From Aquisalinus luteolus (GTDB lineage: Bacteria; Pseudomonadota; Alphaproteobacteria; Caulobacterales; Parvularculaceae), in NCBI RefSeq assembly GCF_009712425.2, contig NZ_VCJR02000002.1, forward strand, positions 62,001 to 126,000: a stretch of DNA of 64,000 nt, written 5' to 3'. Below, in pieces: positions 17,976-23,350 of the stretch. The notes beneath the pieces were generated by a model. The model was not told the origin of the DNA. It saw only the letters and a program-made list of their open reading frames with translations, and ran no database searches. Both the position numbers and the translations under genes were made by a program. Within the stretch, counting starts at the first letter, position 1. Each line of letters begins with the position of its first letter.

Positions 17976-19316
17976 ATGACAGACAACACCGCTGCTTCCA
18001 ACGCACCAGCAACAGGCAGGAAAACCGAGGTCGTGACCCTCGGCTGCCGGCTGAATGCGTATGAGTCTGAAAAGATGAGCGAGCTGGCAAGCGCGAGTGG
18101 TCTGTCTGACACGATCATCATCAATACCTGTGCAGTGACGAACGAGGCCGTGCGACAGGCACGCCAGGCCGTGCGCAAGGCCCGCAAGCGCGCGCCGGAG
18201 GCCCGCATCGTGGTGACGGGCTGCGCGGCGCAGATCGATCCTGAAGGCTTCTCCAGCCTGCCGGAAGTCGATGTCGTTATCGGCAATGCCGACAAGCTGA
18301 CCGCGAAAGCATGGCAGTCCGTATCCGGAGGCTCCGTACCCGCCGTCAGCGACATCATGGAAGAGACAAAAGCCCCGACCGCAGCGCCGCTGCCAAAGGT
18401 CGAGCGTGCCCGCGCCTATGTGCAAATCCAGAATGGCTGCGATCACCGATGCACGTTCTGCATCATCCCCTTTGGCCGCGGCAATTCCCGCTCGGTGCCG
18501 ATTGCTGACGTCGTTGAAGAGTGCCGCGCCATCGCCGCGCAGGGGGTGAAGGAGATCGTGCTGACCGGTGTCGACGTTACCTCCTATGGTCCAGACCTGC
18601 CGGGCAATCCGACACTGGGCATGCTCGTCTCGCGCATCCTGAAAAACGTGCCCGACCTGCCGCGCCTGCGCCTGTCCTCCATCGATGGCGCGGAGATAGA
18701 CGAACACCTGTTCGAGCTGATGGTCAGCGAGAGCCGTATCGCGCCCTATCTGCATTTATCTTTGCAGGCGGGTGACAACATGATCCTGAAACGGATGAAG
18801 CGCCGCCACACGCGCGAACAGGCAATCGAGTTCTGTGCCCGTATCAAGGCACGCCGCCCTGAGGTGACTTTCGGGGCAGACATCATCGCCGGTTTCCCGA
18901 CGGAGACGGACGAGATGTTCGCGAACTCGCTGAAACTGGTCGAGGAATGCGGCCTGACCTTCCTGCATGTGTTCCCGTATTCTGCGCGCAAGGGCACACC
19001 CGCCGCACGCATGCCGCAGCTGGATGGCACGATTATCAAGGATCGGGCCGCCCTCCTGCGTGCCGCAGGAGACGCGGCGCTGGAACGTCATCTTGCAGGA
19101 TTTGTTGACAAGACGGTGAGCGTTCTGACCGAGAAGGCCGGAAAGGATGGCACCGGCCATGCGCGCCTCGCCGATTTTACCGAGGTACGGTTTGACGCCG
19201 GTGACAATGGCCATCTGCGCGAACCGGGACATATAACCAATGTCACCATCACCGGCCATGACGGTCGCGCGTTAATCGCCACGCTGCATGAGACAACGGA
19301 ACGGACAAAGGGATGA
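17976..19316 (+). CDS. mtaB: tRNA t6A37 methylthiotransferase MtaB
   Basis: A radical-SAM methylthiotransferase of about 446 residues that converts t6A37 to ms2t6A37 in tRNAs. The N-terminal MTTase domain starts with VVTLGCRLNAYESE and has its cluster cysteines in LGC, NTCAVTNEA and VTGCAAQ; the radical-SAM cluster is CDHRCTFC. The LGCRLN start is typical of MtaB rather than MiaB. Candidate starts are 17922, 17964 and 17976; none has a strong ribosome-binding site, and I prefer 17976 (MTDNTAAS). The stop overlaps ftsY by four bases, forming an mtaB-ftsY pair seen in many alphaproteobacteria. Confidence 0.9.
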   Translation: MTDNTAASNAPATGRKTEVVTLGCRLNAYESEKMSELASASGLSDTIIINTCAVTNEAVRQARQAVRKARKRAPEARIVVTGCAAQIDPEGFSSLPEVDVVIGNADKLTAKAWQSVSGGSVPAVSDIMEETKAPTAAPLPKVERARAYVQIQNGCDHRCTFCIIPFGRGNSRSVPIADVVEECRAIAAQGVKEIVLTGVDVTSYGPDLPGNPTLGMLVSRILKNVPDLPRLRLSSIDGAEIDEHLFELMVSESRIAPYLHLSLQAGDNMILKRMKRRHTREQAIEFCARIKARRPEVTFGADIIAGFPTETDEMFANSLKLVEECGLTFLHVFPYSARKGTPAARMPQLDGTIIKDRAALLRAAGDAALERHLAGFVDKTVSVLTEKAGKDGTGHARLADFTEVRFDAGDNGHLREPGHITNVTITGHDGRALIATLHETTERTKG

Positions 19317-20887
19317 GCGAGAAAAAGGGATTCTTCAGCCGCCTGTTCGGCGCACGCGATGCTGCCGAGACTGACAAAGGCGACGAAGTCAAGAATGACG
19401 AGAAGGCGACCGAGGGCCGTCAGGGCGTCACCGACCGCGATGCACACGATGTCCATGCGCAGCGCCCTGATGACGACAAGGAAAAAGCTGCCGCCACCGC
19501 CGTTGAAGACAGCGAAGCCGGTGCCCCCGTCACCCTGCAGGAAGGGTTACAGGCCGAAGCCGAAGTACCGGCACAACGCGAGGATGAAGACAATCTCGCC
19601 CCCAATGCTAACGCAGATGGCTATCTCGAGATCGAGGACGAAGAGGCGATGCCCGTCGCCGATACCGGCCCTGCCGTGCCCGATGTCGAGGCGCGTCACC
19701 TCAACGACATTCCGGTTACGGAAACGGAAGGCGATGTCGCGCCAGAAATACAGGAAGAAAAACCATTCGAGGGAACCAGTACGGGCGAAGCGGCTTCCGC
19801 CCCGATTGCCGATATTCCTGAGCCGGTTGAAGGCATTGCTGAAGAGACACCATCGCCGGAAGCTGAACCGGAAAGCCCGGTCATCGATTATCCGGAACCC
19901 GATGTTCAGGACACAACTCAGGCACAGGCTGAAACCCCGTCGACACCGGAACCGCAAAAAAAAGGCGGCTTCTTCTCGCGTCTGCGCGATGGTCTTTCCA
20001 GGTCGTCCGAAAAACTCTCCGGCGGTGTCAGCGCGATCTTCACCAAGCGCAAGCTTGACGATGAGACGCTGGAGGAACTGGAAGACCTGCTGATCTCTGC
20101 TGACCTTGGCCTGCCCGCGACCACACGGATCATCGAGGCCCTGTCCGAAGGGCGATACGACAAGAACGTCTCGCCGGAAGAAGTGCGCGATGTCCTGGCT
20201 AGTGAAGTTGCAAAGACACTGGAGCCGCTGGAGCGGCCGCTGCAGATCGGTACCGGCCACGCGCCCCATGTCATCCTGATGACCGGCGTCAATGGCGCGG
20301 GCAAGACAACGACTATCGGCAAGCTGGCGAAGAAATTCGCCGATGACGGAAAATCCGTGATGCTGGCGGCGGGCGATACGTTCCGTGCCGCCGCGATCGA
20401 GCAGCTGCAGGTCTGGGGCGAGCGCACAGGCGCCCCTGTGATCACCCGCCCTGTCGGCTCTGACGCAGCCGGTCTTGCCTTCGACGCCTTGAAGGAAGCG
20501 AAGGAAAAGAACATCGACGTCCTGATGATCGATACCGCCGGGCGCCTGCAAAACCGACGCGAGCTGATGGATGAACTCGCCAAGATCGTCCGTGTCATCA
20601 AGAAGCTGGACGAAACTGCACCGCATGATGCGATCCTGGTCCTCGATGCGACCGTTGGCCAGAACGCGCTGAGTCAGGCGGAGGCGTTTTCACAGACAGC
20701 GAACATCACAGGGCTTGTCATGACCAAGCTCGACGGCACGGCGCGCGGTGGTGTGCTGGTCGCCCTCGCAGACAAGTTCGCAATTCCGATCCACTATATC
20801 GGGGTTGGCGAAAGCGTCGAAGACCTGCAGCCTTTTCAGGCACGCAAATTCGCACGGGCGCTGGCAGGTATCGCCACGGATCAATAG
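19313..20887 (+). CDS. ftsY: Signal recognition particle receptor FtsY
   Basis: A 524-residue SRP GTPase that docks ribosome-SRP complexes at the inner membrane. After a short basic start (EKKGFFSRLFGARD) there is a very acidic, low-complexity A domain of roughly 200 residues, then a second KKGGFFSRLRDGLSRS amphipathic stretch leading into the NG domain. GTPase motifs are GVNGAGKTTT, DTFRAAAIEQL, DTAGRLQN and TKLDGTARGG. The NG domain alone is about 300 residues, so the acidic region accounts for the extra length. The repeated FFSRL motif at both ends of the acidic domain is likely a membrane-binding element used twice. Confidence 0.96.
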   Translation: MSEKKGFFSRLFGARDAAETDKGDEVKNDEKATEGRQGVTDRDAHDVHAQRPDDDKEKAAATAVEDSEAGAPVTLQEGLQAEAEVPAQREDEDNLAPNANADGYLEIEDEEAMPVADTGPAVPDVEARHLNDIPVTETEGDVAPEIQEEKPFEGTSTGEAASAPIADIPEPVEGIAEETPSPEAEPESPVIDYPEPDVQDTTQAQAETPSTPEPQKKGGFFSRLRDGLSRSSEKLSGGVSAIFTKRKLDDETLEELEDLLISADLGLPATTRIIEALSEGRYDKNVSPEEVRDVLASEVAKTLEPLERPLQIGTGHAPHVILMTGVNGAGKTTTIGKLAKKFADDGKSVMLAAGDTFRAAAIEQLQVWGERTGAPVITRPVGSDAAGLAFDALKEAKEKNIDVLMIDTAGRLQNRRELMDELAKIVRVIKKLDETAPHDAILVLDATVGQNALSQAEAFSQTANITGLVMTKLDGTARGGVLVALADKFAIPIHYIGVGESVEDLQPFQARKFARALAGIATDQ

Positions 20888-20913: not shown

Positions 20914-21705
20914 ATGAGCACAGGCACCAAGGGGCGCAAACTATCTGGCTGGCAAAAAGCGGCGGTCGACTTCGGACCACTCGCGCTTTTCTTCATCGGC
21001 TACTTCCTGCCGGATCGCGTTGGCCCGATCGTCAACAATTTGTTCTCGACGGGCTTCTTCACCGAGGATGGCAACGAGCTTTATCTCGCGCTGACGCTGT
21101 TCCTGCCTGCTTACATCGTTGCCTTCATCGCCTCACTGATCATCGAGCGGCGTATTGCACCGATGCTGCTGGTCAATGGCGTCATTGCCATCGGCCTTGG
21201 CGGACTGACATTACTGTCCGGCAACAAGACGCTGTTCTACATGAAACCGACGGTGATCTACGTGCTGTTTGCACTGGTGCTGACAGGCGGTTTGCTGACC
21301 GGAAAGAATTTCCTGAAGCTGCTCTTTGACGATGCCTTCCGCATGCCCGACAAGGCCTGGTACACACTGACATGGCGATTTGCTGCCGCTTTCCTCGTCA
21401 TGGCAATCGCCAATGAAATCGCATGGCGCACGCTGACGGCTGGCTGCGTGCCCGATGCCGAATGCGCCGGTGAAGGCACGTGGGTGAATATCAAGATCTT
21501 CGGCTTCTCTGCAGCCTATATCCTGTTCATCATCACGCAGGGCCCCTTCATTGCCAAACACATGGAAGACAGCAAGAAAGACGGCGCAAAGGTCGTAGAC
21601 GGCCCGGACGATACGGCGGCCTTCGTCAACACGGACAATGTCAGCGATGCAGATGACGAGACCACGGCTGCAAAAGGCAGTGAAGGCGATAACAAGCCGG
21701 GCTGA
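20914..21705 (+). CDS. yciB: YciB/IspZ-family inner membrane protein
   Basis: A 263-residue protein with about five transmembrane helices, for example FGPLALFFIGYFLPDRVGPI and YLALTLFLPAYIVAFIASLI. The pattern and the MPDKAWYTLTWRFAAAFLVMA block match the YciB (IspZ, septation protein A) family, which affects envelope integrity. It is longer than the usual 180-200 residues because of a charged C-terminal tail of about 50 residues (EDSKKDGAKVVDGPDD). The gene follows ftsY by 26 nt with an AGGAAT ribosome-binding site. Its last 190 bases overlap the end of the convergent NUDIX gene. Confidence 0.82.
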   Translation: MSTGTKGRKLSGWQKAAVDFGPLALFFIGYFLPDRVGPIVNNLFSTGFFTEDGNELYLALTLFLPAYIVAFIASLIIERRIAPMLLVNGVIAIGLGGLTLLSGNKTLFYMKPTVIYVLFALVLTGGLLTGKNFLKLLFDDAFRMPDKAWYTLTWRFAAAFLVMAIANEIAWRTLTAGCVPDAECAGEGTWVNIKIFGFSAAYILFIITQGPFIAKHMEDSKKDGAKVVDGPDDTAAFVNTDNVSDADDETTAAKGSEGDNKPG

Positions 21706-22253: not shown

Positions 22254-22503
22254 GTCACCCTCCCTGAATTTCGGTGCGCTGGTATGGTCTTGCCACAGAT
22301 ATTCCGTTTTACCCCTTTTTCCGTCGAAAAATGTGGAAAAAATCTTGCAAAATGCTCCGACACCGGACACCGTGAAAATGTTTGTTAACATGCGCGATGC
22401 AAACAAGGACCACCAGGGCGGTTATAAGCGGGGACACCTTCTCCATATCGTCTGGCTAAAGCCGGTACTGAAGATCGGCTCGTTGAAAGATAAGAGGAAG
22501 ACA

Positions 22504-23283
22504 ATGGCTAATTTTTCGCTCGAACAATCCCCCGGTCACCTGCTCCGCCGGGCTCAACAATATGCATACGACCTGTATGCAAAGGAAGTGGGCAAAACCG
22601 GCCCGACACCGCGTCAGTTCGCGGTGCTGCATACCGTGTCTGAAAACGAAGGCCTGAGCCAGACCGACCTGGTCCGCAAGACAGGCATCGACCGGTCCAC
22701 CCTGGCAGACATGATTTCCCGTCTGATCAAGAAAGGCATGCTCGCTCGCGAGCGCACGAAAGCCGATGCTCGGGCGAACTCTGTAAAACTGACAGCTGCT
22801 GGCAAGCGCGTTCTGTCATCTGCAACGGCAAAAGTCGAAAAAGCGGAAGCTGCCGCTCTCGACGTCCTGCCAAAAACCCAACAGGCAGCGTTCATGAAAG
22901 GTCTGTCGACCTATGCAGAGGCGCTGGACAAAATAGAGGCTGAACAAATGGCACCGAAGAAACGCGCGCCGCGCAAGGCAACCAAGAAGAAAGCTGCAAC
23001 CACCAAGAAAGCTGCTGCGAAGAAAGCACCGGCCAAGAAGGCTGCAAAGAAAACAACTGCCAAGAAGGCAACCACCAAGAAGACCACTGCCAAGAAGGCA
23101 ACTACCAAAAAGGTAGCGGCGAAGAAAGCACCGGCAAAGAAAGCCACAGCGAAGAAAGCGCCGGCCAAGAAAGCCGCTGCGAAGAAAACCACCGCCAAGA
23201 AAGCCCCGGCGAAAAAAGCTGCTGCGAAAAAAGCACCGGCAAAGAAAACCACCAAAAAACGCGCAACGAAGAAGAAAGCCTGA
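22504..23283 (+). CDS. MarR-family regulator fused to a histone-H1-like Lys/Ala tail
   Basis: A 259-residue protein in two parts. Residues 1-148 are a MarR-type winged helix (GPTPRQFAVLHTVSENEGLS, then TDLVRKTGIDRSTLADMISR and a KADARANSVKLTAAG wing). Residues 149-259 are almost only Lys, Ala, Thr and Pro in AKKAPAKK/AKKTTAKK repeats, like eukaryotic histone H1 tails and bacterial HctB/AlgP-type proteins. The join is at MAPKKRAPRKAT. The tail would bind DNA without sequence specificity, suggesting a nucleoid-associated or bridging regulator. An AAGAGGAAG ribosome-binding site precedes the ATG. It stands alone and ends at a strong terminator. The frame is uninterrupted through the junction. 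Confidence 0.88.
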   Translation: MANFSLEQSPGHLLRRAQQYAYDLYAKEVGKTGPTPRQFAVLHTVSENEGLSQTDLVRKTGIDRSTLADMISRLIKKGMLARERTKADARANSVKLTAAGKRVLSSATAKVEKAEAAALDVLPKTQQAAFMKGLSTYAEALDKIEAEQMAPKKRAPRKATKKKAATTKKAAAKKAPAKKAAKKTTAKKATTKKTTAKKATTKKVAAKKAPAKKATAKKAPAKKAAAKKTTAKKAPAKKAAAKKAPAKKTTKKRATKKKA

Positions 23284-23310
23284 GACGGCCTGACTCGCGC
23301 ATGAACGAGC

Positions 23311-23339
23311 AAAACGCCACCGCTAGCCGGTGGCGTTTT
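23311..23339. terminator. Bidirectional terminator between the MarR-H1 gene and the SPOUT methylase gene
   Basis: AAAACGCCACCG (23311-23322) pairs perfectly with CGGTGGCGTTTT (23328-23339) around CTAGC; A- and T-tracts at the ends fit termination in both directions. Confidence 0.93.
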
Positions 23340-23350
23340 CTTTTGTTCGG

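Follow-up and report, generated by a model that had tools for sequence, protein, structure and literature searches.

The locus and its neighbourhood

The window, a stretch of 64,000 nucleotides from the genome of Aquisalinus luteolus, harbors a gene whose predicted product combines a MarR-type winged-helix domain with a histone H1-like tail made up mainly of lysine, alanine, threonine and proline. Its features and those of its conserved neighbours are compiled in Table 1. The position of the reading frame and its unbroken course through the joint, as described in an earlier note on this DNA, were recovered exactly, and the gene does end at a terminator-like hairpin. The putative Shine-Dalgarno motif belongs to the sequence AAGAGG, which is present in five other aligned promoters of the genus Aquisalinus.

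Table 1. Features of the tail gene and its surroundings (window coordinates)
Feature	Position	Strand	Basis and details
ORF (MarR domain and H1-like tail)	22504–23283	+	259 residues; ATG at 22504, stop TGA at 23281–23283
Shine-Dalgarno-like AGAGG	22493–22497	+	From the sequence; 6 bases ahead of the ATG
MarR-family winged-helix domain, residues 1–145	22504–22938	+	Pfam, AlphaFold2 model, VIA structure matches
Predicted recognition helix, residues 64–76	22693–22731	+	AlphaFold2 helix; near-invariant across aligned orthologs
H1-like Lys/Ala/Thr/Pro tail, residues 146–259	22939–23280	+	Translation, HC2 match, charge, low pLDDT
Intrinsic terminator-like hairpin with T-rich tail	23311–23349	+	Hairpin at 23311–23339 with 12 pairs, 7 of them GC, and T run
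ftsY, conserved upstream neighbour	19313–20887	+	TIGR00064, 341 bits (cut-off 261); synteny
ispZ (septation protein A), conserved upstream neighbour	20914–21705	+	PF04279, E 1e-44; synteny
Candidate operator TGTTTG-N15-CAAACA	22379–22405		Inverted repeat, 98 bases ahead of the start codon

In the window, domain and tail are encoded by a single open frame. The ortholog of Aquisalinus flavus D11M-2, the nearest named genome (MarR part 99% identical), has an identical joint and a tail that stays in frame up to its own stop codon. Genome contigs were scanned once, which yielded 352 relatives, and the best 80 of them were used as named loci. Since two of these (L049 and L079) are cut off by contig ends, 78 complete ORFs were available, and all 78 showed the two-part layout. 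The comparison supports the claim that the fusion of a MarR domain with an H1-like tail is genuine. The boundary itself needs a small correction: it had been set at residue 149, while the composition typical of the tail begins at about residue 146 and the last helix of the MarR fold is predicted to extend to residue 149.

Opposite the tail, an antisense frame of 133 codons (22911–23312, minus strand) was noticed. Its translation is rich in Phe, Ala and Val, mirrors the lysine codons of the tail, and is probably not a gene.

The MarR domain

Pfam MarR_2 matched residues 33–91 (E 3e-14, 53.3 bits, cut-off 27), and Pfam MarR gave 48.7 bits against a cut-off of 24.6. The Pfam families matching residues 1–145 are winged-helix families, and no HU family is among the 12 families matched at E 0.01. 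An AlphaFold2 monomer model, built with 46 sequences, reached a pLDDT of at least 90 for 107 residues; the lowest block mean within the domain was 69 (residues 81–90). The N- and C-terminal helices of the MarR fold were predicted at residues 10–29 and 124–149. When the model was compared with known structures (VIA), the 50 matches listed had Z scores between 14.4 and 17.3 and mostly carried titles such as MarR, SlyA or MexR, a few being entitled just "transcriptional regulator". BpsR, HosA and PcaV headed the list (Z 17.0–17.3), with entries that include ligand complexes. The five best matches superimposed with an rmsd of 1.5–2.1 over 130–141 residues at 26–34% identity.

Across 26 aligned orthologs, 42 columns of the MarR part never vary. 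Residues 60–71 and 73, which precede and partly form the predicted recognition helix, are invariant both in this alignment and in a larger one (46/46). According to the parts of PMC6882365 consulted, residues L6, G11, H12 and R15 of one PcaV subunit contribute to the ligand pocket. Residues 1–143 of the model align with residues 1–141 of the PcaV chain, and all four residues are present in the window protein, H12 and R15 being invariant in 26/26 aligned orthologs. Because these pocket residues are retained, a small-molecule input to the protein is plausible.

The degree of conservation was compared with that of neighbouring genes in loci classified as Parvularculaceae-like by titles and identity (L004–L055 without L053, plus L065); L053 was excluded because it falls outside the family on the domain tree. 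Over 43 such loci, the median identity to the window was 73.1% for the MarR domain and 73.4% for the FtsY NG domain, the MarR domain being the more similar one in 23. It surpassed ispZ in 42/42 and xth in 15/20 Parvularculaceae-like loci. In 16 other loci it exceeded FtsY in seven, with medians of 54.1 versus 54.5. Conservation of the MarR domain in the Parvularculaceae-like loci is thus close to that of the FtsY GTPase domain.

The H1-like tail

The tail has a net charge of +47, compared to +7 for the MarR domain. Residues 148–257 matched HC2 (PF07382) with 35.7 bits in a whole-protein scan and 63.1 bits in a six-frame search, the cut-off being 40. Past residue 149 AlphaFold2 predicted no secondary structure, and block means of pLDDT ranged from 51 to 63. 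The tail is therefore predicted to be disordered, low confidence being consistent with disorder and no proof of it. A strict AKKAxAKKA codon pattern occurs seven times in the 3.68-Mb genome, each time within the tail gene, and not at all in the reversed control; the repeat pattern is beyond chance. Neither PF07382 at E 0.01 nor the codon pattern detected another H1-like stretch in the genome; among 14 control genomes, two gave matches with PF07382, in neither case above the cut-off.

Among the 78 complete ORFs, 19–132 residues follow position 145. Lysine and arginine account for 31–59% of these tails (median 50%), and the net charge lies between +3 and +78. Lysine-rich tails that also contain Asp and Glu are found in f2 and several other families of the order. 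The window and A. flavus are identical at 422 of 435 positions of MarR-domain DNA (13 differences, no gaps) and at 268 of 306 positions of tail DNA, the latter with 39 gapped positions; the 400 bases downstream are 85% identical. Within one alphaproteobacterial genus, the tails measure 48, at least 388 (L221, which reaches the contig end) and 857 residues (L220, stop codon present). The suspicion in the earlier note that the repetitive tail DNA varies in length between strains thus holds between species, each represented by one genome. Related genomes had also been suggested there as the place to look for the same layout and to compare tails: beyond the shared layout of the complete ORFs, tail lengths of about 20 to 857 residues were found across the loci inspected.

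The longest of these proteins (L220, 2195–5197) is an ortholog of 1000 residues, consisting of a MarR domain and the 857-residue H1-like tail. This tail contains 37% Lys and 25% Arg (62% together), almost no acidic residues, and carries a net charge of +524. Its DNA yields 2505 distinct 30-mers out of 2542 and uses varied codons for the same residues, which argues that the protein composition is what is kept, rather than that the DNA has simply expanded. Overall, positive charge of the tail is kept while its length is free.

Distribution and gene order

Within the family, Parvularculaceae, 60 of 62 genomes gave matches with E values of 1e-10 or lower, the own genome counted. With a profile of 26 rows, 177 of the 200 genomes grouped under the order by the search were positive at E 1e-20 (own genome included; G587 reached merely 4.1e-21), as were 96 of the 387 genomes of the class, where many of the weaker matches are probably other MarR proteins. 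When 299 genomes were sampled from the phylum, 17 passed E 1e-35, all of them within the same class. No near ortholog was found when 22 match-free genomes were rechecked (20 of the 23 in the order and both of those in the family). Ten of them had any match at E 1e-6, the best with 8.7e-13, and the two family genomes are less than 90% complete. As the gene is common in the order yet absent from the rechecked genomes, some lineages have presumably lost it or altered it so far that it is no longer recognizable.

The 20 complete genomes of the order without a near ortholog include members of the genera g274, g279, g290, g294 and g295 (family f157), of g275 and, with one genome, g293 (f156), and two genomes of g280 (f2). 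They have sister genera with a match, and in g275, g280 and g293 also fellow members of the genus. These genomes constitute a natural deletion set.

The neighbourhood is conserved as well. Of 52 Parvularculaceae-like named loci, 47 carry ispZ upstream in the same orientation, as do 14 of the 28 other named loci, 25 of 28 loci from the order's other families, 12 of 24 from the remaining class and 1 of 12 that are more distant; ftsY is ahead in 45, 6, 16, 4 and 2 loci of the respective groups, some loci being too short to show their neighbours. This gene order argues that the loci are genuine orthologs of old origin.

A tree of the domain was calculated from the window, 37 of the 80 named loci and 63 of 69 other loci, six near-duplicates being omitted; L096 and the window's own copy had been set aside before the 69 loci were counted. 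The tree is a quick one that leaves 37 forks open and brings some long branches together; 87 of its rows form one supported set (SH-aLRT 97). By thresholds that we set ourselves, 78 of the 87 have basic tails, compared to none of the 14 rows outside. The nine rows of the set falling short of the thresholds include L132, L133, L136–L138 and L207, these six with ispZ upstream and with at most 19 residues remaining as a tail. The MarR domain with a basic tail represents an old family, common to many Alphaproteobacteria, rather than a fusion confined to this locus, and the gene appears to be vertically inherited, adjoining ispZ and ftsY.

The promoter region

An inverted repeat, TGTTTG-N15-CAAACA, was identified ahead of the gene. 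In each of six Aquisalinus genomes it occurs at a single place, always upstream of the tail gene, and the reversed control gave no hit. The half-sites within AAATGTTTGTTAACA and GCAAACA are conserved over the six aligned promoters of the genus, while part of the spacer is not. Uniqueness by itself is weak evidence, since 12 fixed bases are expected by chance in about one genome in five. Retention at one place in 6/6 genomes is stronger, though the promoters share ancestry. The repeat is regarded as a candidate self-operator, found in the genus Aquisalinus only. Its half-sites are spaced by 21 bases, which is longer than expected for one MarR dimer. In the window's genome, GCAARNGTTYGTTAAS with one mismatch was found in the gene's own promoter only. 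If the repeat does serve as operator, the lack of exact copies elsewhere would mean that other targets are degenerate or reached via the tail.

Other elements were not relied upon. A palindrome common to the upstream regions of all orthologs was sought with exact half-sites of five bases in four groups, and was dismissed because each candidate covered too small a share of the related promoters: the highest counts were those of TTCAT-N1-ATGAA, present in 5 of 31 loci of the order's families, and CGTCT-N0-AGACG, in 4 of 24 other loci of the class, which exceeds the two or fewer in any of 20 shuffles. Of 53 loci, 16 contain the element [GT]CAANNNTTNNTTA, whereas 50 shuffles gave a mean of 0.08 and a maximum of 1; it was set aside as well, being absent from the window and drawn from promoters of shared ancestry.

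Comparison with known DNA-binding proteins

The window protein shares its fold with the MarR repressors PcaV, HosA and BpsR, including the PcaV pocket residues H12 and R15. What separates it from them is the tail: these and the other structure matches listed have chains of 125–169 residues and no tail of this size, although the limits of the constructs may play a part. Among curated models, the NCBIfam MarR entries Saro_0803 (NF053777) and BagL/FevM fitted the domain best and were matched by 46/46 aligned members at E 1e-5. Nevertheless, the window protein scored far below their cut-offs (64.4 of 200 and 56.5 of 230 bits, respectively). As it reached the cut-off of no listed NCBIfam model, the family seems to be without a curated name there.

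Regarding the tail, Hc2 and the Burkholderia H1-like proteins (PF07382, NF038053) have a similar composition. They are stand-alone basic proteins, whereas the H1-like part of the window protein forms one end of a MarR regulator in a continuous frame. The actinobacterial HU proteins HupB and HupS resemble it in possessing a folded DNA-binding domain followed by a C-terminal PAKK/KAAK tail; their folded part, however, is HU, while the window protein has a winged helix and no HU match at E 0.01. Lysine repeats of the H1 type also occur on TopA, Ku and the sigma factor HrdB, which belong to the enzymes, repair proteins or sigma factors and not to the MarR regulators. HrdB chains matched the window protein through the tail alone (query from residue 141). 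According to PMC5676037, HupB depends on its tail to associate with the nucleoid. Excerpts of PMC7398561 report lysine repeats on TopA, Ku, HupS and HrdB, on TopA also in Caulobacter, and describe the tails of Ku and HupB as needed for DNA interaction, with acetylation of the HupB tail affecting binding.

Several bacterial DNA proteins are thus known to carry lysine tails of the H1 type. For a MarR-type regulator we found no report: among the matches listed from the open-licence literature, in the portions seen, none described a MarR protein with such a tail, which is weak evidence of absence, and no locus tag of a Caulobacter crescentus ortholog was obtained. One hit, PMC5815017, was discarded as a source because in the part consulted the "MarR family" match was a reference entry only.

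Possible function and alternative explanations

From the data above we consider it reasonably probable that the gene encodes a conserved dimeric MarR regulator whose tail adds general DNA affinity, possibly with a role in the nucleoid. The protein would work as a dimer, so that each complex carries two tails. The winged helices would read a specific site, probably including the gene's own promoter at the inverted repeat, while the tails would bind the DNA backbone regardless of sequence and thereby raise the overall affinity. They might keep the regulator on the nucleoid and could bridge nearby segments. Tail length may tune affinity; small changes in length would cost little because mainly charge matters. 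Acetylation of tail lysines, as in HupB, could act as a natural switch. Architecture, conservation, charge, gene order and the single repeat were observed directly, whereas dimerization, autoregulation, non-specific binding by the tail, the nucleoid role and ligand control are inferred. A general role of the gene is supported by its deep conservation and synteny. A strictly required nucleoid organizer is disfavoured since 20 complete genomes of the order are without a near ortholog and the f2 tails mix lysine with Asp and Glu. A bolder version, which we put forward tentatively and regard as rather doubtful, would make the family an undescribed class of alphaproteobacterial chromatin proteins: MarR dimers with linker-histone tails would nucleate at sites including their own promoter and condense the surrounding DNA, with tail length (about 20 to 857 residues) as an evolvable compaction dial.

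The protein might instead be an ordinary local repressor of a few genes, in which the tail merely speeds up target search or lengthens residence by hopping and segment transfer, without contributing to the structure of the nucleoid. In favour of this, the candidate operator occurs once per genome; the protein's nearest folds include ligand-bound PcaV, HosA and BpsR, with the pocket residues H12 and R15 kept in 26/26 orthologs, and loss in some lineages would fit a non-essential regulator. The references of PMC4204827 also include papers on DNA search aided by disordered tails. On the other hand, a conservation like that of the FtsY domain is, in our judgement, unusual for a repressor of this kind, the recurring genes among the window neighbours sought are ispZ and ftsY and not a pathway, and a tail of 857 residues seems to be beyond the needs of a search aid. 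On balance we hold this explanation to be rather unlikely.

The remaining alternatives concern the tail itself. It may not serve chromosomal DNA at all and may instead bind RNA or ribosomes, anchor the protein to acidic partners or the membrane, or recruit another protein. Polycations bind many polyanions, and the composition ranging from K/A/P/T to K with D/E would agree with such a task; since the tail is joined to a DNA-reading domain and the lysine-repeat tails named in excerpts of PMC7398561 sit on DNA-binding proteins, it is nonetheless improbable. That an internal start at Met149 (22948–22950) additionally yields a free H1-like protein of 111 residues is very improbable: an AGAGG does precede ATG149 by eight bases in the window and in A. 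flavus, and a Met before APK or APR recurs in Aquisalinus- and Parvularcula-type loci, yet only 5 of 15 distinct Met-bearing loci have GAGG (window, L004, L008, L020, L092) against GAAG in the other ten, and the Met is absent from Marinicaulis-type orthologs. Low-complexity repeats can be misassembled, which could suggest a frame error or a chance read-through; this is hardly conceivable given that all 78 complete ORFs among the best 80 of 352 relatives share the layout in frame with a stop codon and that the window gene has its own terminator.

If the preferred reading of a tail-bearing MarR regulator is true, a linker-histone-like regulator resides beside ispZ and ftsY in a whole branch of the Alphaproteobacteria. 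The order searched presumably includes relatives of the cell-cycle model Caulobacter, following the GTDB grouping. The family would then also offer a clean natural system for how a disordered charged tail alters a sequence-specific regulator, because evolution has made many tail lengths on nearly one reading head.

A minor observation concerns the upstream neighbour. Ahead of its GTPase part, FtsY of the window carries some 230 residues of acidic, repeat-like sequence, encoded a few kb from the gene with the basic tail.
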